This document shows, piece by piece, positions 1 through 17,473 of a stretch of 64,000 bases of DNA. The translations under genes were made by a program, and so were the position numbers. This DNA is from Xanthobacteraceae bacterium (lineage in GTDB: Bacteria > Pseudomonadota > Alphaproteobacteria > Rhizobiales > Xanthobacteraceae). The stretch spans positions 26,363-90,362 of the forward strand of contig JAQGJU010000099.1 of assembly GCA_028290465.1 (NCBI GenBank). The letters are read 5' to 3'. Each line of letters opens with the position of its first letter. Position 1 is the stretch's first letter. The notes under the pieces are model-generated. The model was not told the origin of the DNA. It did not search any database and worked only from the letters and a program-made list of their open reading frames with translations.

Positions 1-594
1 CATATTGGCTGCCGCGGAATAGCCTGTTTGGCTGGTTTGGCTGGTTTGGCTGGTTTGGCTGGCTTGGCTGGCTTGAATGGCTTGCGGCGCAGGCCCGTGC
101 GGAGGCCGTCGACTGACGCCATGGATGTCATTGATCAGCTGGACGTTGTCCGCATCGATCGTGATCGTCGGCGAGACAATGCCCGATAGCAGTGGCGGCA
201 GTTCTGATGCCGGCAGTTCGTGCCGCACCGGAAGGAAGCGGCATTGATCATTAAGCTTGCGAACCAGGCCAGCATCCATCTCCTGATTAACCCAGGGCTT
301 TTTAATTGATCGCGGACTCAGCAGAGCAAGAAAATTAGTGCAGCCACCTATGCCTTCATCGATTTTCTGCCGCAAGCTGTCACCGGCCGAGACGCACCAT
401 TTGTCCCACCACACCTCAATGCCGGCGCGCTCCAACGTTTCAGCGAGCCGGCGGGCGATCTCAACGTCGTCGGATGTATAGCCGAGAAAGACGCGAGGAC
501 GGGCTTCAGTCGCTGGGCTGCCTTGCTCCACTTCACCTCCCAATCGTTTGTTGATCAGTGCTATCGAGATTGCGAGGATCAAGTGATTTCCCAT
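1..594 (-). CDS. TIR-domain protein, partial (C-terminus lies beyond base 1)
   Basis: The reading frame is open from an ATG at 594-592 to the window edge, 198 codons. Residues about 34-125 form a TIR domain: a strand VFLGYTSDD, then VWWDKW (61-66), and WVNQE with Glu105 in the place of the TIR NADase glutamate. Residues 171-192 form a repetitive Ser-Gln-Ala/Thr linker encoded by the 9-bp tandem repeats, and an unknown C-terminal part follows outside the window. TIR domains of bacterial defence proteins cleave NAD+ or make ADP-ribose signals; whether this one does is inferred. It diverges from the adjacent kinase/TIR-TGT/QueC operon, so it may be part of the same defence module or a separate one. 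The start could also be a downstream GTG near 556. Confidence 0.8.
   Translation of the reverse strand, partial: MGNHLILAISIALINKRLGGEVEQGSPATEARPRVFLGYTSDDVEIARRLAETLERAGIEVWWDKWCVSAGDSLRQKIDEGIGGCTNFLALLSPRSIKKPWVNQEMDAGLVRKLNDQCRFLPVRHELPASELPPLLSGIVSPTITIDADNVQLINDIHGVSRRPPHGPAPQAIQASQASQTSQTSQTSQTGYSAAANM
25..75. repeat. 9-bp tandem repeat inside the TIR gene
   Basis: About six units of a 9-bp motif (ggctggttt, drifting to ggctggctt) lie in frame in the TIR gene and encode Ser-Gln-Thr / Ser-Gln-Ala on the minus strand. The unit length keeps the frame, so copy-number change would lengthen or shorten a linker without breaking the protein. Confidence 0.9.
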
Positions 595-841
595 CTATCG
601 AGAACGTGATCATCAAGTAACCTCGCCGCTGCGAATCGGGCTTTATAAAACAACCTGATGGACCCGGACGGTAGCGCATACTGCGCTTGCGCGGCCGGAC
701 CGCTAAAGGCCCGATAAGGCTGAGCTTAGCAGCTATAAGCGCTTCAACTATTTCGGAGAACTACTCGATTCTCCAATAAGTCTAGGATATGGTATCATAT
801 TCCGAGATCCGAATTGGATCAGCGGCGACTGCGGTAGACAC
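595..841. promoter_or_regulatory. Divergent promoter region with two inverted repeats
   Basis: The 247-bp gap between the divergent TIR gene and the defence operon has no credible gene. It contains an inverted repeat ggagaa/ttctcc (755-760 and 769-774) and a perfect 5-4-5 palindrome atatg-gtat-catat (787-800), both within 90 bp of the operon start. They are placed where an operator or core promoter would be. No regulator gene is adjacent, and no clear sigma-70 boxes were identified. Confidence 0.4.
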
Positions 842-1987
842 ATGATTGTTGCTGGCGGCTGCTATAGGGAGCTTTGCGAACATCCCTATTGGAACGAGAC
901 GTTCGGATCGGGCGGAAGAGCGGCAGCAGCGATCGCCTCATACTCGAACGAGGTACGCCTCCAAACCTATTTTCGATCAGCCAATCATTTTGACCTCTAT
1001 ACGTTACAGGTTCATGGCGTCACCGTCGAAGCAGCACCCAGAGATCAGGATATAACCTTCGCGTATCTCCACCCCCTGGGCGAGCCTCACCGTCTTCCGC
1101 AATCCATCGTTATGTGCGACGACATTCGAGCAGCAGGACGTTCTGTACTGCGGTTCGGGTTTGTTGAGGGGGGAGCGATAGTGGACGCTGGACAAGCTGT
1201 CTACGACCCTCAGAGCGCGACACCAGCGCTTTTTAGCGCCAACGGTTCACGCGCCGACCGCCTCGCCATTGTCCTAAATCAGGCGGAGCTCCAGGTGCTC
1301 AGCCGATGCTCAGACATGACCGATGCCGCGCAGCGTCTATTGCGCGATGAACGAGCCGAGGCGATCATCGTCAAGTGCGGCGCAAGAGGGGCCTGGGTTT
1401 ACGAGACGGCGAGCGAGCCGCAGTTCGTCCCCGCTTTCCGCAGCAAGCGCGTATTCAAGATAGGTACAGGCGATGTCTTTAGCGGAATTTTCGCCTATCA
1501 TTGGTGCGAGAGAAGAGAGAACGCTCTTCAAGCTGCCATCGCTGCATCGCAGGCCGCGGCCTTCTATGCCGAAACGAGAAGCTTGAAGATCGCCATCCGC
1601 GACCGCGAACCTGTACGTTCATCGAAGGGGCGGGTTTCTGTCGTTTCATTCGGAGATACTCTTCCAGACCGCTGGCTGCGCGAGGAAGCCCGCTCAGCCC
1701 TGATAGGCATGGGAGCCGAATTGGTGGAGCAGCCATCGAGCCCATTAAATGCTGATGCGGTAATCGACAGTTTTCTGATCTTAGCAGACGGGAATGCGCG
1801 ATCTTCTCTAAAATTCATTCGACAGGCAAGATCGGCCGGCGTGCCTACTGTTGTGTATAAGGAAAAGGGACGACTTCCCACCTCCGAAAGTGCGGAAAGC
1901 TTCTACAGCAACGATTTTTCAACGGCCATTTATAACGCATTGTGGGCGGCGCCGCCGCGACCCGGACAGTACGCCCCCCAAACCTAA
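842..1987 (+). CDS. PfkB-family kinase fused to nucleoside deoxyribosyltransferase-like domain
   Basis: The protein has 381 residues. Residues about 1-255 look like a PfkB/ribokinase-fold protein: the diagnostic KIGTGDVFSGIFAY block lies at 206-219, with GTGD (208-211) holding the catalytic-base Asp211, preceded by the VKCGARGAW strand-turn typical of the family. Residues about 262-375 form a second Rossmann-like domain (W..EAR..L..MGAE, then ILADGNARS) resembling nucleoside 2-deoxyribosyltransferases. Both domains handle sugar-base compounds, so a nucleoside or modified base is a plausible substrate; that is inference. The gene is first in the operon, and its end may overlap the next gene by 46 nt. 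No strong ribosome-binding site precedes the ATG. Confidence 0.75.
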   Translation: MIVAGGCYRELCEHPYWNETFGSGGRAAAAIASYSNEVRLQTYFRSANHFDLYTLQVHGVTVEAAPRDQDITFAYLHPLGEPHRLPQSIVMCDDIRAAGRSVLRFGFVEGGAIVDAGQAVYDPQSATPALFSANGSRADRLAIVLNQAELQVLSRCSDMTDAAQRLLRDERAEAIIVKCGARGAWVYETASEPQFVPAFRSKRVFKIGTGDVFSGIFAYHWCERRENALQAAIAASQAAAFYAETRSLKIAIRDREPVRSSKGRVSVVSFGDTLPDRWLREEARSALIGMGAELVEQPSSPLNADAVIDSFLILADGNARSSLKFIRQARSAGVPTVVYKEKGRLPTSESAESFYSNDFSTAIYNALWAAPPRPGQYAPQT

Positions 1988-2001
1988 TCGCTGAGGACCC
2001 A

Positions 2002-3420
2002 TTGGCCGACGTCTGTATCTTGTACGCAAGAAATGATGCCCGAAAGCAAGCAAAGAAACTTGCTGAGCTTATAGGGCTGCGTTGGTCTGTCTGGTGGGAT
2101 GCAAAGATCGACGTGGGCGACTACCGACGCGAAATTCGCAAGCAACTTTCCCTCGCTGGCTGCGTAGTTCCAATTTGGTCAGCGTCAGCAGAATTTAGTG
2201 AAGTACTGCACGATGAGCTTAACATTGCGGCTAAACAAGGCACGCCGATTGTTCCAGTACGAATTCACGAAGTAACTGCTCCGCTGGGCTTCGGTACCCG
2301 GCAGATGACGGATGCGATCGGATGGACAGGTGAGACCTCTTCGCCAGACGTGCTTGAGCATGTGGACCGAATTGCACGAACCTTGGAGGCACGCAAAACT
2401 GAGGTCGTGCGGCAGCCCGCCTTAGCGCTCGGGACCGGCCTTGCGCTTCCTTCGCTGTTTTTCTCAGTCTCATCTTTTGAAACGCGCATATCACCGGGTT
2501 CGGCGGTCGATGCCTTGAACCTTTTTGGTGCTCGGACGGTTCTGATTTCCGCCTATGATTTCGATCGAGACCGCGCTCCACCTCGAGGGCTTCTGCCCGC
2601 CGTTAGGGAGATGCGCTCTCGCGGCACGACTGTATTGTTGGATTCGGGAAATTATGAAAAAGCGAGACGGACCGACCATAAGTGGACGCTAAAGAAGTAT
2701 CACGAGATGCTGGAGCGTGTGCCCCATGACGCCGCATTTTGCTTCGATGACGTCGCTCCTCCTAAGAATCCCACCCAGGCAATAAGCGAGGTACTAAAGG
2801 CGACAGCGCGAGATCAAAGAAGAACCAAGCAGCCGATCATTCCCGTAGTCCATCTTGCGCGTGACCGCTCTGGCAATTACAAAAGCGATATGGCGCCCGA
2901 GATGATGAAACAGGTCGCGAAAGAAGCTAGACCCGTTCTGCTTGCAATTCCCGAGCGCGAGCTGGGATCAGGAATCTTCGAGCGCGTGGCAACCATGCAA
3001 AAAATTCGGAAGGCCCTGAACGGCCTATACTACTACCAGCCGGTGCATATTCTAGGCACTGGCAATCCTGCCAGTATCGCACTCCTCGCAGCGGCGGGAG
3101 CTGATACATTCGACGGATTGGAGTGGTGTCGATACGTAGCAGACGGCGAGACAAAGACGCTTCATCATTTTCAGCTGTATGAATTATTCAAATGGCAGGA
3201 CTCCTTGGCTTCCTCACCTGTTACGCGGGAAGCACTAATTGATCCCGATGCACGTTATGCAGCTCGCACAGTATTTCATAATCTCGACTTTTATACTCGC
3301 TGGATCGACGAGTTGCGACTTGCCCTGCGCGATGACAAGAGATTGGTAGAATTTATGACGGGGCTTCTTCCGAAGAACACGATGCCGCTCGCACGGCAGG
3401 CGCTTCCGGGGGTACTGTAA
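2002..3420 (+). CDS. TIR domain fused to tRNA-guanine transglycosylase-like domain
   Basis: From the TTG at 2002, which has GAGGA five bases upstream, the protein has 472 residues and the TIR strand starts at once. An ATG at 1942 would add 20 residues overlapping the kinase gene. Residues 3-90 are a TIR_2-like domain (SVWWD at 29-33, Glu72 in the candidate catalytic position). Residues about 150-470 resemble TGT/DpdA enzymes: LDSGNY (213-218) matches the LDSGGFQ site, and GTGNP plus DTFDGLEWCR (368-377) matches the nucleophile region with Asp371. The CxCxxC zinc motif of housekeeping TGT is absent. TGT enzymes exchange guanine for a deazaguanine base. The stop overlaps the next start (TAATG), which implies coupling. 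A role in immunity is inferred from neighbours. Confidence 0.8.
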   Translation: MADVCILYARNDARKQAKKLAELIGLRWSVWWDAKIDVGDYRREIRKQLSLAGCVVPIWSASAEFSEVLHDELNIAAKQGTPIVPVRIHEVTAPLGFGTRQMTDAIGWTGETSSPDVLEHVDRIARTLEARKTEVVRQPALALGTGLALPSLFFSVSSFETRISPGSAVDALNLFGARTVLISAYDFDRDRAPPRGLLPAVREMRSRGTTVLLDSGNYEKARRTDHKWTLKKYHEMLERVPHDAAFCFDDVAPPKNPTQAISEVLKATARDQRRTKQPIIPVVHLARDRSGNYKSDMAPEMMKQVAKEARPVLLAIPERELGSGIFERVATMQKIRKALNGLYYYQPVHILGTGNPASIALLAAAGADTFDGLEWCRYVADGETKTLHHFQLYELFKWQDSLASSPVTREALIDPDARYAARTVFHNLDFYTRWIDELRLALRDDKRLVEFMTGLLPKNTMPLARQALPGVL

Positions 3421-4133
3421 TGGAGCCCACGTTTGATCGCATACAAGCAGCGGTCGCAGCTATTTATCCGGAGATTGAAAAGGCCGCGATGGCAAGTCCG
3501 GCACAGCTTTGCGAGGAGGAGCTTTGGCATGAGCTGGCGTGCTGTATTTTAAGCAGCCAGGTGCCGTATCCATTGGCCCAAGCGGCCGCGGACCGCATCA
3601 GGGGCCATCGAGTCTTGGTGCCGCTTCACGAATTCGAGCCTGGAGGTTGCGAACGTGCGCTCCAATCGCTTTTGCGCGGCACGTTCTTCGTAGAAGGTCG
3701 AGAGCGACGCTATAGGTTTCCAAACTCTAAAGCGCGGCAGATATCCGGAACCAGATTGAACGTCTTGCAGAGTTTCGGCACGCTTACAGCGGCACTGTTG
3801 GAATTCGACAATGCCGAAACCGCGAGAAAGTGGTTTGTGAAGAACGCCCCAGGATTAGGGCCCAAGCAGGCCAGCATGTTTCTCCGTAACTGTCGCGGAG
3901 CTTATGATCTGGCCATAATTGACCGGCACGTCCTGACTTACATGCACATTGCAGGCCTTCGACCAAGTGGCACGCTCGTGCCGGCAAGATATGCTGGATA
4001 TCTGGAGTACGAGCTGATTCTGAGATCCCACTCTCACGCCAAAGGATATATGCTCGGTTTGTTTGATTACGCAGTGTGGATCGTGATGCGCGTTGTCGCT
4101 CGGCAGAAAGTCGTTGAAGGTCATAGGACATGA
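3420..4133 (+). CDS. HhH-GPD N-glycosylase/DNA lyase-like protein (OGG-like, Cap11-type)
   Basis: The protein has 237 residues. LWHELACCILSSQVPY (35-50) matches the substrate-pocket helix of OGG-type glycosylases. The helix-hairpin-helix APGLGPKQAS (143-152) carries the candidate Schiff-base Lys149, and AIIDRHV (165-171) supplies the catalytic Asp168. The family excises damaged or modified bases and can cleave the abasic strand. It overlaps both neighbours by 1-4 nt (TAATG at its start, ATGA at its end), so it is part of one coupled operon with the TGT-like and QueC-like genes. This trio is the accessory set known from type IV CBASS. The actual substrate is not visible from sequence. Confidence 0.8.
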   Translation: MEPTFDRIQAAVAAIYPEIEKAAMASPAQLCEEELWHELACCILSSQVPYPLAQAAADRIRGHRVLVPLHEFEPGGCERALQSLLRGTFFVEGRERRYRFPNSKARQISGTRLNVLQSFGTLTAALLEFDNAETARKWFVKNAPGLGPKQASMFLRNCRGAYDLAIIDRHVLTYMHIAGLRPSGTLVPARYAGYLEYELILRSHSHAKGYMLGLFDYAVWIVMRVVARQKVVEGHRT

Positions 4134-4717
4134 GTATTGTTACTCTTGTTTCGGGAGGGCTTGACTCGACCCTCGTCGCGCTCCTCGCAAAGGAAACGGG
4201 TAACATTCAATACCCGCTCTTCATAGATTATGGTCAGCGCGCAACACAGCGGGAGCTTGAAGCGTGCCAGCGAGCAATGACACTCCTAGAGTTGCCGGCT
4301 CCGCACATTGCAGAATTGAGCGGGTTTGGACGCTTAATAAAGTCGGGTCTAACGGACCGCAGCCTCCGCGTCAGAGAAGATGCCTACACGCCGGGACGTA
4401 ATATGCTGTTCCTATTAACGGCCGCAGCCTACGCTGAACGGGTTGGCGCGGATGCAGTAGCCATCGGCTTACTCCATGATGAGGCGGCCATATTTGATGA
4501 CCAAACGTCGGAATTTCTAGCTGCGGCAGCAGAGTTGTTGCGGATGGCGGTGGGCCAACCACTTAACATTATTGCGCCGTTGAAGGGGTTCCACAAGAAG
4601 GACGTTGTCGAACTGGCGAAGCAGAAGAATCTGACCGGCACATACTCGTGTCATCTGGGCGAGAATGTTCCTTGCGGTCAATGCATCGCGTGTCTCGAAT
4701 ATCGATTCGGAGATTAA
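4130..4717 (+). CDS. QueC-like 7-deazaguanine synthase (Cap9-type)
   Basis: The protein has 195 residues, slightly shorter than housekeeping QueC (about 220-230). It has the N-type ATP pyrophosphatase loop SGGLDS (8-13), the TPGRNMLFL block (88-95) and four zinc cysteines, Cys174, 182, 185 and 188 (CHLGENVPCGQCIAC). QueC converts 7-carboxy-7-deazaguanine to preQ0 using ATP and ammonia. Queuosine housekeeping genes (queD, queE, folE) are not nearby, and the partners are TIR, TGT-like and OGG-like proteins, so an immune role as in type IV CBASS Cap9 is more likely than tRNA queuosine synthesis. The ATG overlaps the upstream stop (ATGA). Confidence 0.85.
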   Translation: MSIVTLVSGGLDSTLVALLAKETGNIQYPLFIDYGQRATQRELEACQRAMTLLELPAPHIAELSGFGRLIKSGLTDRSLRVREDAYTPGRNMLFLLTAAAYAERVGADAVAIGLLHDEAAIFDDQTSEFLAAAAELLRMAVGQPLNIIAPLKGFHKKDVVELAKQKNLTGTYSCHLGENVPCGQCIACLEYRFGD

Positions 4718-4721
4718 CCTC

Positions 4722-5195
4722 ATGGGTGGAAACAGCGGCGGTGGTGGCGTTAGTCGCAATACTCTTGGGAATCTCAGGAATCTGGAGGAGAAGGCCAAAC
4801 AGGCTCTCGATCCTAATAGAAAAAATGTCTTCATTAGCTTTGCGTATGAAGACCTCGACGAAGTCAATTTGCTGAGGGGCCAAGCCAAGAACGATCGGCT
4901 CGATCTTGAATTCAACGACCGTTCCGTCCAGGAGCCGTACGAAAGCGAACGGGCGGACTACATCAGAAGTCGGCTCGCCGATCGTATCAAGCAGGCCTCT
5001 ACAACGGTAGTCTACCTGACCGATGACGCGGTCTCCAGCCGTTGGGTGAAGTGGGAGGTTGAGAAAAGTCTCGAGCTGGGTAAGCGTGTAATTGCCACGC
5101 ATTCGAAAAGAGGAGCCCCGCAGGTCGTCCCAGACTGGATAACAAAGAACAACATCAAGATCGTCGCTTGGAACAGGCTCGCCGACGAGCTGTGA
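4722..5195 (+). CDS. ThsB-like TIR protein with glycine-rich N-terminus
   Basis: The ATG at 4722 has GGAG nine bases upstream and gives 157 residues; an in-frame ATG at 4665 would lie inside queC and is unlikely. The N-terminus is MGGNSGGGGVSRN, flexible and starting Gly-Gly. Residues 34-125 are a MTH538/DUF1863-type TIR fold: VFISFAYED (36-44), EFNDRSVQEPY (63-73), and SRWVKWEVE (106-114) with Glu112 in the usual catalytic position. This is the type seen in Thoeris ThsB, which senses phage and makes a cyclic ADP-ribose signal. The gene ends the operon, and no ThsA effector follows. A role as sensor/signal synthase replacing a CD-NTase is inferred. Confidence 0.8.
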   Translation: MGGNSGGGGVSRNTLGNLRNLEEKAKQALDPNRKNVFISFAYEDLDEVNLLRGQAKNDRLDLEFNDRSVQEPYESERADYIRSRLADRIKQASTTVVYLTDDAVSSRWVKWEVEKSLELGKRVIATHSKRGAPQVVPDWITKNNIKIVAWNRLADEL

Positions 5196-5424
5196 AGTGT
5201 CGCATCCGTATGACGGGAGGGAAAGATATAGGTAGAGTTAAATTGGATTCCGGAGTGCTAGTCGATAAGTTGAAGGCTTGCTCGCACGTGACGAGTGCTG
5301 CCCACGCATATTCCTTAATGACGGTCTTGTTCATATCGAAATTCTATTACTGATAAGGCGATTTCTGCCGCCGCTCCCCTCCGTCGAGCCTGTAACTGCT
5401 CCCGCGGCTTGGTTGCTGCGCACT
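5196..5424. other. Gap between defence operon and converging satellite genes
   Basis: 229 bp between convergent genes. I see no credible gene, tRNA or strong hairpin here. Confidence 0.5.
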
Positions 5425-7446
5425 CTACCATCGGGGTTCCTCATGGCCGCAGACCTGCCAAACCGCACCATGCGCTCTATCGTTTGAAACCTGTTCGATC
5501 CATCGCCCGCCGACAACGGTTTTTGAGAACCGCAGCAGATATCGTCCAAATCTCTTCGGTGAGAAAATTCCACCACGGCTGACGAAGTTCTCCAGCACCT
5601 CACGCAACGATTGATCCATCGCGATCCTGTTCCCGATTTCCCTGGACGTGAACGGGCCTTTCGGCATGGCCGCGATGATTTCCGCAAGTTCAATTTTCTC
5701 CGGGTCGTCGGCTCGCATAGCGTCTATATTCCCCCGGCAGTCGCCCATTCCGAGCCACATCAAGGCCGATCGCACAGTGTCAGACCAATCCTCAAAAGAC
5801 CCCATAGGAGATGCCTGACTCGGAGCGCCGGCACACAGATAAGCCCGGACGATGGTCAATGCGGCGGCGACGAGTTCGGCACGCATCCCCAATGCGAGAC
5901 CGGTCGCATTATGGTCAAAGCGGCGTTCGTCAGGCCGTTCGCACTTAGCATCGAGCCGAATACGAACGGCGCGGCGGTTCAAGTCGCCGTGGATCGACAG
6001 ATTGTTCCCGGTAGCGCAAATGAGTGCGGTGGAAGGAATGCGGACGTTCTTGGATGCGCCGAGAACGCGGACCTGAACTTCCTCCTGGGTGAGAAGCTGG
6101 CAAAGCTGATCGCTGCGGAGAATGTGCGTTATGTTGTCGATGCTGATGATCTGATCGCCGGCAAGCGCCGAAGCGCCAATCCGCTTTTCAAGTTCGGCCT
6201 CGTCCTGTGTTGGCGTGACGACTGCCGCCTTGCGGCCCGTCGCCATGATGGCGGCGATATCAACCAGAAGGCTTTTCCCGGTTCCAGCCGCAGGCGCGGT
6301 GATTGTGAACATGGGGACGGTCCGGAGGCTGGGCCGCATGACGCTGGTGATGAGCAGCGCGATAGCGGCAGACCGGTCGGCATTTTCGACGAAGGGGAAT
6401 GCATCAATCGGCTTTGCCAGCTTGTCCAGGGCATTCAATGCATCCCGTTTAGACGGACTGTCTGGCACCTGCCGCCAGGCGCGGTCGCCGACCAGAAGGA
6501 GGCCGGTGGCCGCATCGTAACCCGGCGCGCTGAGAACCGTTCCGTCGTGTCTTAGCGTCGGCGCGCTGATGACGGCCCGTAGGCGAGGTACGTTGTCCCA
6601 GCCGTGCCCCTTGTTGGCCAAGATCATACGCGCGATCTCGGCAGGGCAGTCACACGGCACAAACTTGTCTGCGCGACCGTCCCATTTCACAAATCTACGG
6701 TTGCGAGTGAGCGTTTCGACCAAGGCGACATCGGACAGGGTTGCGATAACGACCGCTCCATCTGGGCGATCGACGTTTTCGCCTTGCTTTGCAACGGTAA
6801 GAGTTCTTGCGGGCATACGATACGTGACTGCCCGCACAAGGTCATCACCGCGAGCGTAGATGCCAAGCGAAGCGTCGGAAAGAACAGCTATCGCATGGTC
6901 CACGGCTTCGTGAATCTCTCCCTTGACGACGTAGATCGGCTTGCTTGCAAGCCTGTCGCTGCCATCAGGAGCGACTGCCGACGCAACAGGGCCGGCAGGG
7001 GGTGGGGCTTTCTCTGCGGATGGCGTCAGCGGTTTCGTCTGTGACCAAGGCTTAATGATCGAACGCATAAACTGATCGATTCGAGACTTGTCCCACCCTT
7101 CGTTGACCGCGTCGGCAGCACTCCACCCGCTCGGCACGTCATCGCGCATCACATCCATCACGCGGACTGTCGCACCGATCCCGCGCAGAGCAGTCTCTAT
7201 GTCTTCTGCCATCGCCATTTGCGATGCGCTGGCATCCGGCCAAATGATCACGTTCTTGTTCGAGAGTGGCGACCAGTCAGTGTGCCTTACGCCCTGCGTT
7301 CCACCATCCCAAGCGACAACGACGCGACCAGTTGCTGCGAATAACTTATCGCGGCACTTTTCGTCCCTGACGATGATTACCTGCCGGGCATCGCCTATCG
7401 TGTCCAAGCCCACAAGGGAAGGCATCTCAATTGTATCGCAGAACAC
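5425..7446 (-). CDS. Phage/satellite TOPRIM-AAA helicase-like replication protein
   Basis: The protein has 673 residues from a GTG at 7446. Residues about 10-115 are a TOPRIM-like domain of the kind fused to primases of alphaproteobacterial phages and integrative elements. Its acidic residues are altered: the usual VEGEK glutamate is Arg (IVRDEK, 25-30) and the DxD motif reads DAS (71-73). Residues about 375-480 are an AAA/helicase domain with Walker A APAAGTGKS (384-392) and an IISIDN Walker B. The N-terminal zinc/primase part common in relatives is missing. The gene sits 9 nt after a small hypothetical gene in the same direction. Its presence with AlpA and integrase marks this as an integrative element. 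Confidence 0.75.
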   Translation of the reverse strand: MFCDTIEMPSLVGLDTIGDARQVIIVRDEKCRDKLFAATGRVVVAWDGGTQGVRHTDWSPLSNKNVIIWPDASASQMAMAEDIETALRGIGATVRVMDVMRDDVPSGWSAADAVNEGWDKSRIDQFMRSIIKPWSQTKPLTPSAEKAPPPAGPVASAVAPDGSDRLASKPIYVVKGEIHEAVDHAIAVLSDASLGIYARGDDLVRAVTYRMPARTLTVAKQGENVDRPDGAVVIATLSDVALVETLTRNRRFVKWDGRADKFVPCDCPAEIARMILANKGHGWDNVPRLRAVISAPTLRHDGTVLSAPGYDAATGLLLVGDRAWRQVPDSPSKRDALNALDKLAKPIDAFPFVENADRSAAIALLITSVMRPSLRTVPMFTITAPAAGTGKSLLVDIAAIMATGRKAAVVTPTQDEAELEKRIGASALAGDQIISIDNITHILRSDQLCQLLTQEEVQVRVLGASKNVRIPSTALICATGNNLSIHGDLNRRAVRIRLDAKCERPDERRFDHNATGLALGMRAELVAAALTIVRAYLCAGAPSQASPMGSFEDWSDTVRSALMWLGMGDCRGNIDAMRADDPEKIELAEIIAAMPKGPFTSREIGNRIAMDQSLREVLENFVSRGGIFSPKRFGRYLLRFSKTVVGGRWIEQVSNDRAHGAVWQVCGHEEPRW

Positions 7447-7455
7447 GGGGTTTGC

Positions 7456-7842
7456 TCAGATGTCGTCATCGTCGGTGGAGCCGAGGTGTTTGTGCTCAAG
7501 CTTTGCGACGTAGTCGCGAAGCCGGAACACCCACCCGGCCCATACCTCGACCTCACAGCGCCCGAATACGCCACTCCCTGGGCGGCAATGGTCATCATAG
7601 AACATCGGTCGAATATCGGTGACCGGTAACGGGCCCTCGAAAACGCGGCGAGCGAGACGGAAGTCAACCTTGCGTAACTCACTGTATTTCTTGATTAGAT
7701 TTCCGCGCTCATCGTCATTGAGCACGTCCATGCACATCAGAAGATGAACTCGTTTCGCGATCGCTTCGGCTTCTGGATGATCGAGCGCCAGGCGAATCTT
7801 GCTGCGTTCGCGCGACTTCGGCTCAGGCTGAATTGCTGGCAT
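7456..7842 (-). CDS. Hypothetical protein, satellite operon
   Basis: 128 residues, charged, with no motif I recognise; the C-terminus ends in a run of acidic residues (DDDDI). The upstream AlpA gene and the downstream helicase gene share its strand with short gaps, so it is probably an element replication or control gene. Function unknown. Confidence 0.55.
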   Translation of the reverse strand: MPAIQPEPKSRERSKIRLALDHPEAEAIAKRVHLLMCMDVLNDDERGNLIKKYSELRKVDFRLARRVFEGPLPVTDIRPMFYDDHCRPGSGVFGRCEVEVWAGWVFRLRDYVAKLEHKHLGSTDDDDI

Positions 7843-7934
7843 GTAAGTACTCTCAGATGATTCGAAGAACTATGTTGCTAAATTCGCAACTGCTAAGGAG
7901 CGATTTGGAAAACCAGCCCCCCCGGCATGACCGA

Positions 7935-8168
7935 TTAGGCGACTATTTGGCGCGCGGCCTTGGCTTTCTCGATGGCGTCAAGAATTTCGGAGCGAGGCCA
8001 TCGGCTGAACCTGCCGAGCTTCACCGGCTTCGGCATGAAGTTCAAGCTTACCCACCGCCAGAATGTGGGCTTGGAGCAGCCGAGGATTTTGCAGCACTCG
8101 TCAGCGGCTAGAAGCGGATCGGTGACAACAGTTTCGGTGATTACGGTATTTCTGGTTTCGCGAGCCAT
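7935..8168 (-). CDS. AlpA-family helix-turn-helix regulator
   Basis: 77 residues from the ATG at 8168, which has a purine-rich GAGGGGGAAAG ribosome-binding site directly upstream; a longer start at 8210 is less likely. The sequence LLAADECCKILGCSKPTFWRWV is a typical MerR-like/AlpA helix-turn-helix, followed by the KLGRFSRWPRSEIL wing. AlpA proteins regulate excision and integrase expression in P4-like satellites and similar elements. It lies upstream of the helicase gene on the same strand. No recognised binding site was identified. Confidence 0.8.
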   Translation of the reverse strand: MARETRNTVITETVVTDPLLAADECCKILGCSKPTFWRWVSLNFMPKPVKLGRFSRWPRSEILDAIEKAKAARQIVA

Positions 8169-8244
8169 CGCTTTCCCCCTCTGGAGTTCGATGGCCACCA
8201 ATACGTCCAAGATGGTTGCTGCGTTCTACACCTAAAATAGAGTA

Positions 8245-8300
8245 TTATTTCTCGTGCCGCTGGCTTGCGACCAACTTTACCACTGTCCCGCTCTTACGGT
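8245..8300 (-). pseudogene. Remnant of a second integrase 3' end
   Basis: Positions 8261-8297 match 10,975-11,011, the 3' end of the intact integrase gene, at 34 of 37 bases in the same orientation. On the minus strand it encodes KSGTVVKLVASQRHEK and a stop, the common C-terminal tail of these integrases. Only about 14 codons survive. It marks an old element boundary or a recombination scar inside the island. Confidence 0.65.
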
Positions 8301-8398
8301 GGTGAGGAGGGTTCGGAGGCAAAGGAGCCTCATGAGTGCCCCAAAAGGCCTGAAAATGCCCCAGGAGCCCATGCGGGACTCTTGTGCTAATGGTCCGT

Positions 8399-8782
8399 AT
8401 GGCCTTCAAACCGATTCCCGCCGTAAACCCCGACCACATCATTGAGGCCCACCAGAAGGTGGTTGCCGACCGGGAGAGGCTTGGCTCTTCCGATGTCACC
8501 ATCTCCTGTGTGTCTCTGTTCTCCGGCAGAATGAAACCTCAGAAGATTCTCGACATCACCCACCGGCTCTTCGCGCTAGCCAGATTCCTAGAGGAGGGCG
8601 AAGCAAAAGAATGGGTTATGGAAGAGACCGGGACGGACTACATCCTGGTCAATGAGGCCCTGTTGCGTGCGGCAGCTCGCGCGCCTCTTATGGAAGCGGA
8701 GTACATCAAGGACATGGGCTTTGAAAAGGACACGTTTCTGCCAATCGTCCTCGAAGAAGCTGAGACGGAAGGCAAGGCGTAG
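8399..8782 (+). CDS. Hypothetical protein
   Basis: 127 residues from the ATG at 8399; GTG at 8384 and ATG at 8390 are alternative starts. The protein looks helical and acidic (FALARFLEEGEAKEWVMEE), with no family I recognise. It is the only rightward gene among the leftward satellite genes and starts just beyond the integrase remnant. Function unknown. Confidence 0.5.
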   Translation: MAFKPIPAVNPDHIIEAHQKVVADRERLGSSDVTISCVSLFSGRMKPQKILDITHRLFALARFLEEGEAKEWVMEETGTDYILVNEALLRAAARAPLMEAEYIKDMGFEKDTFLPIVLEEAETEGKA

Positions 8783-8785
8783 CGG

Positions 8786-9253
8786 CTAGGTCTTACTCGG
8801 GACGCTGTCTCTGAGCTTGTCTAGAACCTTCGAACAAGCTGCCAGTATGGCGTCTTGGTTCGTTTCAGCACCATCATACGTGCTGAGACCCTTCGCCCAG
8901 GCGACAATCTCCGGACTGTCGAAATGAATCTTGGTTTTCAGGTGGCCAAACTCGTTTCTGATTTCGCGTAACAGGTCCGCGTCGTTGTGCGTCACCTCGT
9001 CGAGAAGGCCGGCCTCTTCTGCTCTCTTTATCTTAGCAGCAAGAGTTGCCAACTTGCCGCGCTTGCGAAACGCCCGGTCATCTATCTTCTTTCCATTTTG
9101 CAGCATGTGGGTCTTCAAAGCGATTTCTAGAAAACCATCTAGAAATGTTCCGAGCCGCAGCATTGTCTCGGCGTGCGTGTCTTGCACCAACTGACTAAAG
9201 TCGAGACCGTGCTCCTTCAGAATCTCAACGGCTTCACTCAAATCTCTCGGCAT
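8786..9253 (-). CDS. MltR/DUF4145-like protein
   Basis: 155 residues. The centre (DADLLREIRNEFGHLKTKIHF) is typical of MltR-type and DUF4145-like helical proteins, in which an IRNxFGH-like segment is conserved. MltR is known as a mannitol operon repressor, but most relatives, including those on mobile elements, have no known role. It converges with the preceding hypothetical gene, leaving 3 nt between the two stops. It may be related to HEPN-like folds; no catalytic motif is certain. Confidence 0.6.
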   Translation of the reverse strand: MPRDLSEAVEILKEHGLDFSQLVQDTHAETMLRLGTFLDGFLEIALKTHMLQNGKKIDDRAFRKRGKLATLAAKIKRAEEAGLLDEVTHNDADLLREIRNEFGHLKTKIHFDSPEIVAWAKGLSTYDGAETNQDAILAACSKVLDKLRDSVPSKT

Positions 9254-9412
9254 CTATCCCTCCAATAGCCGCACTTTCTCCCCCTCCTACCCTTGCATTC
9301 ATTGCCGGCGGGAGCTTAGCAATCGGCGCGATAATCGACGGACGCTGACGCTCTGTTTCGACTAGATGGCGCATCCGACGAAGTGTAAAAGGTCAAGGCA
9401 TTGAGAAGACGT

Positions 9413-10279
9413 CTAAGGTTTTGCCTTTAATCTTGCGCGCTCATTCTCAATCTCGATCTGTAGCGATTTGGACAAGTGGATATTGTCCTTTACCCATTGC
9501 CACAGTTTATCGGCATCTCCAAAGTTCGATCCCCCTTCCAAAGGATCAAAGAGGCGGCGAACCAAAACGGGATTTTGCGATGACGTAGAGTAGCTAAGGG
9601 GCGGGTGATTGTAGTTAGCAGGGGCAAAAGGATAGTTCCAATCCAAAAGCGCCTTTTGCGCTTCTTCGCTGCGGCTACTTCCCATCGTTCGTTCAAGATT
9701 TGCATGTAGGTTGTGCCAAACCTTGTTTTCTTTGCCCCGAGCCATCCGTTGTCGGCGAGACTCGTTGGGCGAGTTGGTAGCTTCCTCGCTCACAAAACGC
9801 ACTTCCAATGGCTGGCAAAGAGGTCGAACAGCGAAGACCAATTGATCGAACTTCAGGAGGTCTTCCATGTGTTGGACATAGCCGAATATTTGGTATCGGT
9901 TATCAGCCTGTCCATTTTGATAGAGACGCTTAACGAACCCCTCCGGCGTTTCTGAAAGCCAAAAATCAAGCTCGTATTGTGGCGGCTTCATGAGAGTTGT
10001 GGGCAACAACTCGGGAGCAAGCGGGCGAACCGCTGCGTACAGCTTCTCAATCTCGTGACCAAAGTTCCTCGAAGAACGTCCGTTAAGTAGCAAGGCGGCC
10101 TTCAGGTACTTTTCCAAGGAGTGAACTGCTAACCAGAAAAAATCGACATTCAAGCCGTTCTGATAACACCAGCGCGCGGCTACGTAATTGTCGTCCGCTG
10201 TGTTGATGAAAAGCTCTTGTACGATGGTGTGTTTTTCGGCGAATTGATCAGGATAGGGCTCTGTCATTTTGGCGTTCAC
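9413..10279 (-). CDS. HEPN-domain protein
   Basis: 288 residues from a GTG at 10,279 that overlaps the upstream stop (GTGA); an ATG at 10,267 is also possible. Residues about 17-130 resemble a HEPN domain (FFWLAVHSLEKYLKAALLLNG at 47-67, then H75 and helical repeats). R68 and H75 are spaced Rx6H, at the edge of the RNase HEPN spacing, so nuclease activity is possible but unproven. The second half is unrecognised. HEPN proteins are frequent in toxin and defence loci. It is coupled to two small hypothetical genes upstream. Confidence 0.6.
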   Translation of the reverse strand: MNAKMTEPYPDQFAEKHTIVQELFINTADDNYVAARWCYQNGLNVDFFWLAVHSLEKYLKAALLLNGRSSRNFGHEIEKLYAAVRPLAPELLPTTLMKPPQYELDFWLSETPEGFVKRLYQNGQADNRYQIFGYVQHMEDLLKFDQLVFAVRPLCQPLEVRFVSEEATNSPNESRRQRMARGKENKVWHNLHANLERTMGSSRSEEAQKALLDWNYPFAPANYNHPPLSYSTSSQNPVLVRRLFDPLEGGSNFGDADKLWQWVKDNIHLSKSLQIEIENERARLKAKP

Positions 10280-10638
10280 TTAATGCTGTTGATGCCGTCT
10301 GCCATGTCCTGGAGAAATTCCCGTCCTCGTTCATCAAGGCCGGTATTCGGTCGGGCAATTTCTATGAGGGTGCCCAGGATGTCCTCAAACCAATAGATGT
10401 TGTCGCCTCTCGGCATTCCGTGCGCTTGCGAGAGGTAGCGTATCGCTCGAGTGATAAGGGGAAGGTCGATATCCAGCGGTTCGGATATCCATACTTTAGC
10501 GATTTCAGCGAACCTCGAAGCTTGCGCTTGGATCTCAGCAGCATCAATCGGCTTCTGGACCCACTTCGTGGTCCTCGCCAACTCAAAACAAGCCTCCTCT
10601 AGGTCCGCCCGTTCCTTACTTGCTGTCATTGGATTCAT
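10276..10638 (-). CDS. Hypothetical protein, coupled to HEPN gene
   Basis: 120 residues, helical and acidic, with no motif I recognise. It overlaps the HEPN gene by 4 nt and the upstream small gene by 23 nt (8-14 nt if a later start is used), so the three are likely translated together. It could be a partner or antitoxin for the HEPN protein; this is only positional inference. Confidence 0.55.
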   Translation of the reverse strand: MNPMTASKERADLEEACFELARTTKWVQKPIDAAEIQAQASRFAEIAKVWISEPLDIDLPLITRAIRYLSQAHGMPRGDNIYWFEDILGTLIEIARPNTGLDERGREFLQDMADGINSIK

Positions 10639-10885
10639 CGTATTGATTGAGGAGAGCTCGTAGATCTTCGAGCGTCACACACATCTCGCACAGCTTGCGG
10701 TCGCCTTCTCCGTTGTACGTCATGACGTTGAAAAACACCGCCGTCCCCTCGTGAATCTTGGTTGCCTTGTTCTCAAACCGCAGCCAGCGGCCGGAGACGA
10801 TACAAGACACGCTGAACTTACCCCGTTGGTTGAGAATCCTCTTGTGCGTATGGACTGGGAACTGAACGATTGCGTCGTCTGTCAC
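10616..10885 (-). CDS. Hypothetical protein
   Basis: 89 residues, with no recognised family. Predicted strands (RGKFSVSCIVSGRWLRF) followed by an acidic helix at the C-terminus. It is first in a three-gene leftward unit with the 120-residue protein and the HEPN protein. Confidence 0.5.
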   Translation of the reverse strand: MTDDAIVQFPVHTHKRILNQRGKFSVSCIVSGRWLRFENKATKIHEGTAVFFNVMTYNGEGDRKLCEMCVTLEDLRALLNQYDESNDSK

Positions 10886-10964
10886 GGCAACCTCTCGATC
10901 AGAGTTGCATCATCTGTGATTTGTAAGCCGGTTTCTATCTGCACCCTCAAATCAAATAACCAAT

Positions 10965-12167
10965 TTAGGGCCGTTGGCCTGCGACCAACTTTACAACCGT
11001 CCCGCTCTTACCCGTCACGTGATCGGCCCATCGCTCCATCAACGCGCGACGCTGTTCGATGAAATCCGTCCGCCGATAAGCCCGTGTCACTTTGCTGCCG
11101 GCAACGTGCTGTAGGACTGTCTCTGCCACTTCGTGCGGCGCGTCGGTGCATTCTGCGAGCCACACACGCAGCGACGATCGGAAGCCATGTGGACGCGCGT
11201 CCAGCCCGGCCCGGCGCATAAACATGCTGAGTGTCATATCGCTGACAACGCCCTGGCGCGCGCTAGGGAATAAAAAGCCCCCACGAGCAAGCCGGTGTGC
11301 CTGTTCGATCACGGACAGCGCTTCTGTGGACAGCGGCACGCGGAAGTCTTCCGTCTGATCTTTCCGTCCTTTCATCGCTGCCGCTGGGATCGTCCACACA
11401 TCGCTGGCAATCTGATCCTCGCGGCTAAATCGGAGCGGAGCGGAGCGCACGCCTGTCAGGATCAGGAGGCGCAGAGCGAGGTGCGTCACGCTGCCATCGC
11501 TCAGGCTCGCATAGAACGCCGGAACCTCTTGCCATGCCATGGCGGGGATTTTATCGGCCTTGCTGTTGCCGGTCCCGATTAGAGCCTTAGCCTTGTCGAC
11601 AACCTGAGTGTCAACGTCGAGCCCGAGCGCAGCCGCGTGACGAACGACGAGGTTCAGCCGGTTGAGCGCCTTCCTCATCGTCTCAGGTTTCGTGTCCCGC
11701 AGCGGTCGCAGTGTGTCGCGAATATCGACCTGATCGAGGCTGGCGACCGGAACCTTTCCGAGCTTCGGAAGGACGTGCAACGTCAGCGGCGAGAACCACC
11801 GGCCCGCCGTGCCGTCGCCCTTAAGCCGCGCCTTGTAGCCTTCGAAGAAATCGTCGGCGACGTCTTTCAACATATGCAGGTTGCGGGCAGCCTCGCGCTT
11901 GATCCGCTCTCGCTCTTTGATCGGATCATGGCCGGCCCGCACAGCGGCGCGCCATTTATCCGCAGCCTCACGAGCTTCTTTCAAGCCAACGTCAGCGATC
12001 GAGCCGAGGCCCATGTGGCGCAAGCGGCCATGTACGGCCAAGCGCAACACCCAACTTCCGGCATCCTTGCTGCCCTTGAACAGCCATAGCCCGCCGCCGT
12101 CGCCATACTTGCCAGCAGGCGCCTGCCTCACCATCACCGCCGACAGTTTGCCTCGTCCGTTCACCAT
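10965..12167 (-). CDS. P4-type tyrosine integrase
   Basis: 400 residues with the layout of DUF4102-type integrases. The catalytic set is visible: Arg241 (LTGVRSAP), Lys266, His327-x-x-Arg330 (HGFR), His354 and Tyr364 (AYRRTD). It should catalyse integration into and excision from a tRNA-type att site. It lies at the right end of the element, reading inward, with a tRNA-Phe 3' fragment 149-172 bp beyond its start. The start ATG (12,167) is well placed before GRGKLSAVMVRQ. It appears intact, so the element may still be mobile if the left end is intact. Confidence 0.9.
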   Translation of the reverse strand: MVNGRGKLSAVMVRQAPAGKYGDGGGLWLFKGSKDAGSWVLRLAVHGRLRHMGLGSIADVGLKEAREAADKWRAAVRAGHDPIKERERIKREAARNLHMLKDVADDFFEGYKARLKGDGTAGRWFSPLTLHVLPKLGKVPVASLDQVDIRDTLRPLRDTKPETMRKALNRLNLVVRHAAALGLDVDTQVVDKAKALIGTGNSKADKIPAMAWQEVPAFYASLSDGSVTHLALRLLILTGVRSAPLRFSREDQIASDVWTIPAAAMKGRKDQTEDFRVPLSTEALSVIEQAHRLARGGFLFPSARQGVVSDMTLSMFMRRAGLDARPHGFRSSLRVWLAECTDAPHEVAETVLQHVAGSKVTRAYRRTDFIEQRRALMERWADHVTGKSGTVVKLVAGQRP

Positions 12168-12315
12168 TACACACCTCTTTCCACACTCAAGATTTAGATG
12201 GAATGAGAGCGAGTGACAATCGGTGTCTGCCCTGATATCGAATTATCTATTCAGATCAATGGCAACGAAGCGGCACGATTGCTGGTGAGACTAGATGATG
12301 GGTCGCGATATTGGA

Positions 12316-12339
12316 GTTAGATGCCGCCCCTGGGCACCA
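12316..12339 (+). other. Probable attR: 3' end fragment of tRNA-Phe
   Basis: The sequence from 12,324 to 12,339 (ccgcccctgggcacca) matches the T-arm/acceptor 3' end of alphaproteobacterial tRNA-Phe including CCA, and the T-loop before it reads gttagat in place of gttcgat. No 5' half of a tRNA lies upstream, so it is a fragment rather than a gene. A displaced tRNA 3' end next to an integrase start is the expected scar of integration into a tRNA. The intact tRNA-Phe should lie left of this window. The tRNA identity is from memory of the tRNA sequence. Confidence 0.65.
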
Positions 12340-12423
12340 TTACTTTGAAAAACCTTTTCGGTTCAAGAAGTTAAGCCCATTCAACGTGTTGCGCTTGCCC
12401 GACTGTGCCACAGGGGTGTGCAA

Positions 12424-13146
12424 CAATGTTGTTTCGGCTGGTCCGTTCAGTGAAGCGTTCAGGTTCTCGCAATCGCCAATTTGCCCGACGCATTCCCGCT
12501 GATGTGCGGAGCCTTGCGGTCGGCCTGAAGCTATCCGTCACCTGTCGGTGAAGATGTGCGCCGCGTGGCCAGTTCGGATCGCGTCGACTCCATCAGGTGT
12601 CGCTCGGCACGGAGTGAGCCTCACCCACAGGCAAGCGACAGCTCTGGCCGGCGAGCTCTATCGAACGTGGGCGGTCGGTGAGGAGCGCGAGCGCACAATC
12701 TCGATGGAGCATGTGCCGGGCGTCGGTTGGCAGAAAGTCGAAGCCGTGTCGTTTCAGACAGAGGAGTGGGAGCCGCCACCCGACACTGGGAGGAGGTTGG
12801 CAGCACAGGCGAAGCAAGCGACCTTGAGGAACCCTTGGGGGCGATTGTCGACCGGCTGCTGTTGGCCAAGGGCATCGGGACTGTGGATGCCGCATCGCGG
12901 AGCATGCTGCTCTTGGCATTCTGGCAAGCGCTGCGGAACGGGTTCGCCAGTCGTGCGGAATGCCGAAGGGGACTATTCGCCCGATCCGAACGCGAAACGT
13001 TTCCCGAGTGGAAGGCTCCAGCGGCTGAAGCGAAATCGGCCACTCCTAAAGTTTCCTTGAAGGGCCTCGTTGCTCATGGGTGGGTTGAGGCAAAGGCGAC
13101 AGGCCGAAAGCCCCAGTACCTATGAGAGCTACAGCAACGCTATGGC
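12424..13146 (+). pseudogene. Frameshifted site-specific integrase (DUF6538-like)
   Basis: The N-terminus starts at 12,424 (MLFRLVRSVKRSGS, then RRIPADVRSLAVGLKLSV). It then passes through a second frame (GVSLTHRQATALAGELYRTW, about 12,610-12,670) and a third (AASRSMLLLAFWQALRNGFASR, about 12,890-12,960), and returns to a final piece, STYESYSNAMA. These pieces are in the order of a rhizobial phage-type integrase N-terminal half. At least three frameshifts are needed and the catalytic domain is missing, so it is dead. It lies immediately outside the newer element's att site, so the locus is a repeated insertion target. Confidence 0.7.
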
Positions 13147-13520
13147 GGGCTTCGTACTCTTCACGTGGCCCTCGCGCGCCGAAGTGAAACTGCGCGCCTA
13201 GAATTACGACAAAGAGAGCGCAAACTACTCACGGGACGCTCTTGAGCATCTGCTGGATACGCTATCGGCCAATCCGAGTGTGAAGGAGATCAATATCCTG
13301 GCCCACTCAATGGGCAACTGGATTTGCTGCGTCCGTTTGCGAGCCAATTCGCCTCGGCTTGTGGATCGAATAGCGCGTGAGGAGCATCTCTTCGGGATTG
13401 CCGGAACGGAGATGTTGGACAACTGCGCGGCTGCCAAGTCCGCCTGCGAACACATCAACTATTTTGTCCTTGTCACCCTGCGGCGGCGGAGAACCATGCT
13501 CCGTCCGCCTCATCCATCGA
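13147..13520 (+). pseudogene. Broken DUF900-type alpha/beta hydrolase
   Basis: In frame with the preceding integrase tail, the sequence continues as GFVLFTWPSRAEVKLRA, a TAG stop at 13,198, then NYDKESANYSRDALEHLL and INILAHSMGNW with the GxSxG-like nucleophile elbow. Beyond about 13,325 the similarity is lost. Typical DUF900 esterase-like proteins are 300-400 residues, so only a fragment with an internal stop remains. The start is missing where the integrase joins it. Confidence 0.55.
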
Positions 13521-13732
13521 CAGCTCAGAGCGAGTCAAGATAATGCGATGCATAATCTTTAACCCGCTCCATGCGCTCCGTAAGCCGGCCGCCGTCCCGT
13601 CAATAATTTTTGGGAACAGATGGGACGGAGGAACGTTTGGAGACATGCGATCACGAGCCCTTTATGTGAATTGATGCACGTGGGCCAGGGTTCCATTACG
13701 TCGCCAGCGACGGGCGAAGATCGGCAGAGCTT

Positions 13733-14485
13733 ATGCATGACATAATGCATAGTGGCCTTGCGAGCACGAAACGTAAAGCGTGCAACTGGAACGTCCGACC
13801 TATTGTTTCGGAAGCCAGACCAGTAGTTGACTCGATGTACGGCTTGTCGCCGGCCGTGGACTCCACGCGTAGAATTTCCTCCTTCCGGCGCGATCAAGAA
13901 ATTTCTGCAAGATTTGATACGGCAGAACATTGGTACTGCGTCATGTCGGGTTCTGCACGAAAGTGTGCGCTCATGGCAGACGGGCGGCGTCTCATCATCG
14001 ATTTTCTGTTGCCGGGCGACTTTTTTGGTTTCGGTGCCCGGCATGAAGAGTTTTTCGCGGCCGAAGCAATTGCCGGCGGGACCGTCGTGGCACGTTACCC
14101 GCGTCGTTCCCTGGAGACGGCCGCGGATGCTAACCCGCGGATTGGGCGGGAAATTCGCGAGATCACATGCGACGCAATTTCGCGTTCGCAAGCTCGGCTG
14201 TTGATCCTCGGGCGCGTTACCGCGCTTGAAAAGGTCGGCGCGTTTCTGATCGAGATGGCCGATCGCTCGTTCGACCGCACCGACCAGACCGTCGTTCTTC
14301 CGATGTCGCGCTACGATGTCGCTGACTATCTTGCGGTTTCGGTCGAGACCGTAAGCCGGGCGTTGACAGATTTCAAGAAATGCGGCGCGATACGATGTGT
14401 GACGACCCGCCGGATTAAAATTCTGGACCGGAGCGCACTCAAGAATGGAACTTGCGGCGGTCGGGTGAGACTTCGAGTTTGTTGA
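13733..14485 (+). CDS. Crp/Fnr-family transcriptional regulator
   Basis: 250 residues. Residues about 45-125 are a cyclic-nucleotide-binding-like beta barrel (LLPGDFFGFG at 92-101). The C-terminal winged helix has LPMSRYDVADYLAVSVETVSR (189-209), whose Glu205, Ser208 and Arg209 are the FNR/FixK base-reading residues for TTGAT half sites. The N-terminal cysteine cluster of oxygen-sensing FNR is absent, so it is more like FixK-type or nitric-oxide/redox members. The start is uncertain: ATG 13,733 versus ATG 13,835. It stands at the left edge of the stress island, where three FNR-like boxes precede stress genes. Confidence 0.8.
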   Translation: MHDIMHSGLASTKRKACNWNVRPIVSEARPVVDSMYGLSPAVDSTRRISSFRRDQEISARFDTAEHWYCVMSGSARKCALMADGRRLIIDFLLPGDFFGFGARHEEFFAAEAIAGGTVVARYPRRSLETAADANPRIGREIREITCDAISRSQARLLILGRVTALEKVGAFLIEMADRSFDRTDQTVVLPMSRYDVADYLAVSVETVSRALTDFKKCGAIRCVTTRRIKILDRSALKNGTCGGRVRLRVC

Positions 14486-14519
14486 ATTTTTGGCAGGACG
14501 GCTGACCAGGACGGCTGAA

Positions 14520-14641
14520 ACGAGTAAGAGCTGGGAGCCGGGAACGCCTGCTCGCGCGGCGGCGAGCCCTTCGGCTTCAGTCTCCGCCATGCGTTCGATG
14601 TGGCCGAAACTCGAATAGTTGAGCACCAATACCTTTGCGAT
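14520..14641 (-). pseudogene. wrbA: N-terminal remnant of WrbA-like quinone oxidoreductase
   Basis: On the minus strand 14,641-14,520 reads AKVLVLNYSSFGHIERMAE, the flavodoxin-like N-terminus of NAD(P)H:quinone oxidoreductase WrbA, then drifts into a low-similarity tail with frame loss. The remaining about 160 residues are missing. Confidence 0.55.
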
Positions 14642-15669: not shown

Positions 15670-15722
15670 CATGGAACAAAAAACGCCAACCCCCACGAGA
15701 TCAAGCCGAAACGCCGCGAGCG

Positions 15723-16933: not shown

Positions 16934-17035
16934 GTTGCTTACTTAGTTGTTGGATGCGGGGCACGGGTCCTGTGAACCCGTAGCGCCTCCCGCGTCAACT
17001 TCTGGACGTTTCGGGCCGCGCGGCGGTCTCGGTTT

Positions 17036-17455: not shown

Positions 17456-17473
17456 TCTTGGGTGACACGCATC

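Follow-up and report, generated by a model that had tools for sequence, protein, structure and literature searches.

What would a set of QueC- and TGT-family proteins, of the kind that serves a cyclase in type IV CBASS (cyclic oligonucleotide-based antiphage signalling systems), be doing in an operon that encodes TIR proteins and in which that cyclase, a CD-NTase (cGAS/DncV-like nucleotidyltransferase), is absent? The operon that raises this question occupies positions 842-5195 of a stretch of 64,000 nucleotides from a Xanthobacteraceae bacterium (hereafter the window; G000:C32:26363-90362 within an assembly of 5.5 Mb), and it encodes a PfkB-like kinase, a fusion of a TIR and a TGT domain, an OGG-type helix-hairpin-helix (HhH) protein, a QueC-like enzyme and a ThsB-like TIR. 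The answer that we consider probable, based on gene order, on Cap9- and Cap10-type motifs, on a Met-Gly-Gly tail carried by the last TIR and on the fact that no cyclase was found, is that this operon is an anti-phage system in which the ThsB-like TIR sits in the seat of the CD-NTase, the QueC-like enzyme would attach a 7-deazaguanine to the N-terminal glycine of this TIR, and the tail so modified would be bound by the TGT domain. The last TIR is thus likely to stand in for the CD-NTase as the protein that receives the deazaguanine, and since its tail resembles that of the type IV CBASS cyclases, attachment of a modified guanine to its first glycine is predicted to activate it. The literature searched yielded no description of a TIR that has such a tail and is linked to QueC, in line with a preliminary description of this DNA which knew of no published account of the gene set, while an earlier mention is possible outside that literature, including in the key Science 2025 paper.

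As far as the available text of the relevant papers goes, it has been demonstrated for type IV CBASS that Cap9, a member of the QueC family, attaches 7-carboxy-7-deazaguanine (CDG) to the glycine at the N-terminus of the CD-NTase, giving the modification called NDG, and that Cap10, a member of the TGT family, binds the modified N-terminus, the modification being required for defence (PMC11996544, PMC13279940). The CD-NTases are described there as carrying an MGGS motif and QatB of the qatABCD system an MGTS motif, and a G2D substitution as abolishing defence (PMC13279940). A tail of this type is a nearly constant feature of the last TIR in the relatives of the operon. These were collected by scanning a set of genomes once, with aligned sequences of the last TIR as the query, and 80 of the 85 confirmed loci together with the window make up the 81 loci compared here, which were read as six-frame open reading frames (ORFs) and searched with profiles built from the window's proteins. 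A start codon followed directly by Gly-Gly opens the last TIR in 80 of the 81 (78 ATG, one GTG and one TTG, the starts having been settled by checking codons at each locus), the sole exception being the disrupted gene of L082, and the tail that precedes the TIR core is about 30 to 39 residues long, one tail measuring 17 by another start rule. Among the 120 homologues listed out of 1444, 114 begin exactly with MGG, five (P0124, P0125, P0186, P0209 and P0210) show this tail downstream of a different start, and P0213 could not be assigned from the 32 residues looked at. None of 43 further TIR rows from the same loci, examined as a control, has a Met-Gly-Gly start; the search pattern flagged three of them, of which two represent a single flank protein in which Leu-Gly-Gly occurs internally and the third is the gene fragment of L082. 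The catalytic-type Glu of the last TIR, which aligns with a Glu of ThsB 6lhy, is kept in 81/81.

The TIR tails, of which MGGGSGGGLFSSDIKSL (L055, L062) and MGGSGGGFKRQDSQ (L065) are examples, are of the same kind as those of the CBASS cyclases. The latter were read in five type IV CBASS comparators, namely L104 (a Pseudanabaena plasmid with an annotated CBASS oligonucleotide cyclase), L122, L126, L127 and L128, obtained with the PADLOC model TGT from 0/398 genomes of the window's own phylum, 1/198 of the phylum of G042, 3/199 of that of G028 and 0/199 of that of G025, plus one plasmid. A further candidate, G130, was a false positive with a weak TGT match and no QueC. As read, the cyclases start with MGGSGGGFFSNSDI (L104), MGGSGGGFFGGSS (L126 and L127), MGGGGGGGG (L122) and MSGGGWYY (L128), such that four of the five begin with MGG and three with MGGSGGGFF.

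The two proteins expected to write and to read such a tail are also represented by recognizable relatives. The window's QueC-like protein possesses SGGLDS, YGQ(x)5E, RN and four-Cys zinc motifs, and the corresponding set (Y/FxQ(x)5E, SGGxDS, RN and four Cys) is found in all 78 TIR-system QueC proteins counted, L053 having been left out because its ORF lacks SGGxDS. In the available part of one report Y/FxQ(x)5E is given as the signature of Cap9, as opposed to YxQxHxxE in canonical QueC (PMC13329287); here the former occurs in 5/5 CBASS QueC proteins and the latter in 4/5 canonical ones, the remaining, archaeal, canonical protein having the Y/FxQ(x)5E form. For the TGT domain of the fusion the best match among solved structures is Cap10 (9ntn, E 8.1e-14), archaeosine TGT following at 5e-6. 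The motif DSGxYE is present in 75/76 TGTs and in 4/5 Cap10 proteins, as against DSGGFQ in the host's own Tgt, and residues E72 of the TIR part and D214 and D371 of the TGT part are invariant in 22/22 aligned fusions. The fusion matches a single PADLOC model, at E up to 1, named TGT, which we take to be the CBASS one. In the preliminary description TGT-like, OGG-like and QueC-like proteins had been regarded together as the accessory trio of type IV CBASS; the kinship is upheld for QueC and TGT, while for OGG no gene was detected by the window-derived profile in the five type IV CBASS loci.

The normal role of the QueC and TGT families raises a different explanation, which we regard as decidedly unlikely, namely that QueC, TGT and OGG act on nucleic acid, 7-deazaguanine being made and exchanged in DNA or tRNA while the TIRs are independent effectors or sensors. 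It would account for the maintenance of D214 and D371 and for the glycosylase-type Lys and Asp of the OGG-like protein, kept in 76/76 aligned sequences (L070, with a match below 100 bits, left out), residues which presumably have the roles familiar from HhH-GPD proteins. It is at odds, however, with the Cap9 motif variant of QueC and with a TGT domain nearer to Cap10 than to archaeosine TGT and matched in PADLOC by the model TGT only, and it leaves the Met-Gly-Gly tail of the TIR unexplained. Dpd and phage systems of 7-deazaguanine DNA modification likewise comprise QueC- and TGT-family proteins, whereas no Dpd-named PADLOC match was obtained in the operon (the presence of a DpdA model in that library was left unchecked) and the TGT domain here is Cap10-like.

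That the TIR rather than a cyclase is the partner of these enzymes is further suggested by the search for a CD-NTase. The SMODS model PF18144, the only CD-NTase model run, found nothing in the whole assembly of the window, and no CD-NTase was seen in the left flank outside the unread stretch C32:1-8400, so that two claims of the preliminary description, a TIR in place of a cyclase and no CD-NTase alongside, both held; a CD-NTase just left of base 1, which by that description would have refuted the reading, was not found. Among 50 operon-bearing genomes, which comprise that of the window and 49 from the 80 other loci, PF18144 exceeded its cut-off at 10 places in eight, and the sequence retrieved around each of these places (8.3 to 16 kb) contained no QueC, TGT, OGG or TIR by profile. 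One candidate for a joint operon, a CD-NTase match of G028 at 1 kb of a contig of 184,282 bases, was rejected, the operon of L052 lying at about 32 kb on a contig of the same size and thus too far away. For the four CD-NTase loci compared by 60-mer sharing, there was no overlap. The operon is predicted to work like type IV CBASS without being a member of it, because the defining CD-NTase was looked for and not found.

The association of the genes is maintained across the relatives. QueC is present in 79 of the 81 loci that hold a relative of the last TIR, and the two loci without it, L055 and L077, are truncated, their contigs opening within the TIR. In 74/81 loci TGT, OGG, QueC and TIR are adjacent on one strand in this order, a result that agrees with the coupled operon of the preliminary description, which in the window is a tight one; the uncorrected tally of loci that combine TGT, OGG and QueC was 75 and had included L044, in which the TGT match is a TIR protein. 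Other incomplete loci are L040 and L044, cut at a contig start, and L070, which is without TGT and shows only a weak OGG piece. According to the record titles, the at least 80 loci span Bradyrhizobium, Pseudomonas, Nitrospira, Clostridiales, Bacteroidia and one archaeal bin. When 398 genomes sampled evenly from the window's own phylum were searched, the profile of the last TIR matched five genomes and the PADLOC TGT model six, the former being all among the latter; the four TIR-positive genomes besides that of the window have TGT, OGG, QueC and TIR, and the sixth TGT genome is a weak match without QueC. In a separate scan of viral contigs (IMG/VR) a single tailed-TIR relative was confirmed from 87 pattern matches, L138, of 82,665 bases.

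Three architectures can be distinguished among the 76 loci with a strong TGT (L044 and L077, with TGT matches below 200 bits, being left out). The first has a kinase gene, which is found upstream of TGT in 34/81 loci, and accounts for 34/76; in 33 of these TIR and TGT are fused in one ORF, and in L010 the TGT is split in two. The second, with the fusion and without the kinase, comprises 10/76. In the third (32/76) there is neither kinase nor fusion and TGT stands alone by profile, a class that takes in L006, whose TGT is cut at a contig start, and L031 and L035, in which a separate TIR gene immediately precedes TGT; a SLATT gene, encoding a two-transmembrane protein, lies directly upstream in 20 loci of this class. 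Overall, SLATT occurs in 48/81 loci, directly upstream of TGT in 21 (L042 with a weak match), and neighbours 20 of the 34 kinase loci (L009 weakly). In up to 14 kinase loci (300-base rule; L009 weak, L082 a fragment only) it pairs with a second, tail-less TIR. In L010, L011, L015, L016, L028 and others this second TIR is of ThsB type, lacks the glycine tail (MGLPRTFVGFSSTD... in several) and is paired with SLATT beside a kinase-type operon.

Several observations weigh against the reading of the operon as a deazaguanylation-controlled TIR system. Phage defence by the operon is itself a prediction, made from sequence. In all 78 TIR-system QueC proteins a Gln takes the place of the Cys that Cap9 and canonical QueC share (Y-x-D-C), so that the coupled base or the chemistry may differ, and the Tyr of the base pocket is replaced by Phe in 77/78, the Asp being kept in all. 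By matches to solved structures the window's enzyme is nearer to canonical QueC (2pg3, 2.1e-15) than to Cap9 (9nto, 2.8e-12). A 30-row tree was built from five CBASS proteins, five canonical ones and 20 of the 78 from the TIR systems. In it each of the three types is set apart from the rest by a single branch (support values 100/98, 98/95 and 98/92), so the TIR-system proteins form a group of their own away from Cap9; this tree is unrooted and the program warns of long branches, and for these reasons it implies no kinship with Cap9 over canonical QueC. Within the TGTs FDGLxWxR is kept in only 45/76 and [EDK][KR]ELG in 53/76, and the MSGGG start of the L128 cyclase means that the CBASS tail varies. 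OGG is absent in L056 and L065, and SLATT was not found in window positions 1-20000 or in the left-flank locus L002. The main loose end concerns the precursor: a protein of the QueD family (PF01242), needed for CDG, was found in 42/50 operon hosts, but the window's own genome has none by this model, and as a single QueE query against it also gave no match, which is uninformative by itself, the supply of CDG in this host is uncertain. The same genome does have canonical QueC and Tgt; its canonical QueC (L088) is on the minus strand, and three plus-strand ORFs nearby matched no family.

Some of these points fit an alternative that seems possible though unlikely, in which QueC adds a group other than 7-deazaguanine to the TIR tail, or the tail is a docking peptide for QueC, the whole working in the manner of qatABCD and not of type IV CBASS. 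The change from Cys to Gln is in favour of this option, as is the absence of QueD by PF01242 from the window's host, one of eight such hosts among the 50; in the available text on QatC, moreover, the base pocket is also altered and the product is given as unknown (PMC13279940). The PF01242 proteins of the other 42 hosts speak against it, and the deazaguanine-reading Asp and aromatic residue are kept in the operon's QueC, unlike QatC, which has Thr instead. Further comparison with qatABCD gives a similar picture: both have a QueC-family enzyme and a partner with an N-terminal glycine motif, whereas no operon gene matches the families of QatA, QatB or QatD (Pfam, PADLOC), and the operon's QueC, which is short and without the QatC extensions, reaches only 14 and 18 bits with the models for QatC. 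In the available part of one paper that covers TIR, QueC and CBASS, QueC is listed for qatABCD and type IV CBASS only (PMC10952713).

With type IV CBASS itself, the operon and its relatives share a QueC with the Cap9 motif, a Cap10-like TGT, a Met-Gly-Gly partner and, in many relatives, a two-transmembrane protein alongside. They differ in that there is no CD-NTase and the tailed partner is a TIR, in the order TGT-OGG-QueC-TIR as opposed to the order Cap9-Cap10-CdnD-2TM (QueC, TGT, cyclase and two-transmembrane protein) seen in 5/5 CBASS loci, in the frequent fusion of TGT to a second TIR, in the kinase of some loci and in the Gln for Cys exchange of QueC. With Thoeris the operon shares the ThsB-like TIR and its catalytic-type Glu, a likeness that would permit yet another explanation, in which this TIR makes a cyclic ADP-ribose signal for a ThsA-like neighbour and the QueC set is unrelated. 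The matches to ThsB_TIR in Pfam and in PADLOC and a second, full-length ThsB in the left flank are consistent with it, but we consider it highly improbable: QueC stands beside the TIR in nearly every locus, the Met-Gly-Gly tail and the QueC, TGT and OGG partners are foreign to Thoeris, the tail is missing from the other TIRs of the loci, and neither ThsA nor another known Thoeris effector was matched in PADLOC among the six operon and edge proteins and nine flanking ones (six left, three right). The second ThsB (PADLOC 2.8e-58, with no ThsA match nearby) belongs to a divergent pair left of the operon, the other member of which has an N-terminal TIR and begins within window positions 1-594. The idea of a Thoeris/CBASS hybrid put forward in the preliminary description is supported in part, the operon having a ThsB-family TIR together with Cap9- and Cap10-type proteins. 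Its proposal that the response is executed by the base-modifying proteins is not supported as it stands, as the Met-Gly-Gly tail, and the binding of such modified tails by Cap10, point instead to a set acting on the TIR.

For the deazaguanylated TIR, the following sequence of events can be proposed by analogy with the published work on type IV CBASS and qatABCD. The initiator Met would be removed, QueC with CDG and ATP would acylate glycine 2, and the TGT-like protein would dock on the modified N-terminus. TIR enzymes act as assemblies, and docking of the fusion may bring its own TIR beside the ThsB-like TIR, both of which keep the catalytic-type Glu (E72 in the fusion), and so give rise, on infection, to an NAD-cleaving assembly, a step that goes beyond the published analogies. 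Cleavage of NAD by TIR enzymes has been reported (PMC7159879, in its available part), and the response could be an NAD-derived signal, loss of NAD, or both; the last TIR may make an ADP-ribose-type signal, as the preliminary description supposed. Where SLATT is present upstream, it may be the effector that answers this nucleotide signal. The kinase and the OGG-like protein, which would tune or process the signal, have the least certain roles, and it can only be guessed that the former could phosphorylate a ribose-type product and that the latter could release or proofread the base. We lean towards the complete chain, in which the base is welded to the first glycine of a TIR in the CD-NTase seat, a TIR-fused Cap10-like reader docks on it, and the paired TIRs cleave NAD, which signals to a SLATT pore or kills the cell.

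Table 1. Operon features and neighbouring genes (window coordinates unless assigned to L002; domain calls for the operon proteins from Pfam and PADLOC model searches)
Feature	Positions	Strand	Length	Remarks
Operon, five genes head to tail	842-5195	+		
PfkB/ribokinase-family protein with C-terminal Rossmann-like domain	842-1987	+	381 aa	Pfam PfkB 2.4e-10
C-terminal domain of the kinase-like protein	1595-1984	+		Rossmann-like fold
TIR-TGT fusion	2002-3420	+	472 aa	TTG start; TIR N-terminal, Cap10-like TGT-family domain C-terminal
OGG-type HhH DNA glycosylase-like protein	3420-4133	+	237 aa	Pfam Ogg-HhH 3.4e-20
QueC-like, Cap9-like enzyme	4130-4717	+	195 aa	Pfam QueC 1.9e-38
ThsB-like TIR with Met-Gly-Gly tail	4722-5195	+	157 aa	Pfam ThsB_TIR 4.9e-20; PADLOC ThsB; predicted deazaguanylation substrate
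Glycine-rich N-terminal tail of the last TIR	4722-4826	+	35 residues	MGGNSGGGG...; glycine 2 predicted acceptor
PRK07078-like protein	5425-7446	-		
Integrase-like protein	10965-12167	-		1.8e-29
Patatin with TPR-S	L002:5410-8568	+		no PADLOC match
DUF4062-AAA protein	L002:13589-16486	-		no PADLOC match
Full-length ThsB of the divergent pair	L002:16713-17225	-		
N-terminal TIR protein of the divergent pair	L002:17548-18594	-	348 aa	

Two starts in the operon (Table 1) were re-annotated: the fusion most likely begins at its TTG, and the last TIR at an ATG separated by four bases from the stop of QueC. A strong ribosome-site pattern was searched for and gave no match. The kinase-like protein had been described as a PfkB-NDT-like fusion, of which the PfkB half was recovered, with a ribokinase fold in the AlphaFold model (predicted local distance difference test, pLDDT, 91.9) and a GTGD motif whose G208, G210 and D211 are invariant in 25/25 aligned sequences. 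The NDT half could not be confirmed: no Pfam family matched the C-terminal part, the best Foldseek hit had an E of 2.4e-3, a repeat search returned generic Rossmann-like folds, and the label comes from one plasmid annotation. Regarding the surroundings, two defence-like neighbours are encoded in the left flank, a patatin with TPR-S and a DUF4062-AAA protein. On the other side the PRK07078-like and integrase-like proteins adjoin the operon, which suggests that window positions 5425-12167 are part of an integrated mobile element.

If the proposed chain is true, deazaguanylation would not be a peculiarity of CBASS but a portable tag that licenses immune enzymes in general. The operon makes a testable case for nucleobase-protein conjugation, so far reported for CBASS cyclases and suspected for QatB, as a modular control layer for unrelated signalling enzymes, and the family of at least 80 loci is widespread enough to work with. 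One shared tag would link the TIR/NAD and the cyclic-nucleotide branches of bacterial immunity, and the exact residue to mutate, glycine 2 of the last TIR, is named.

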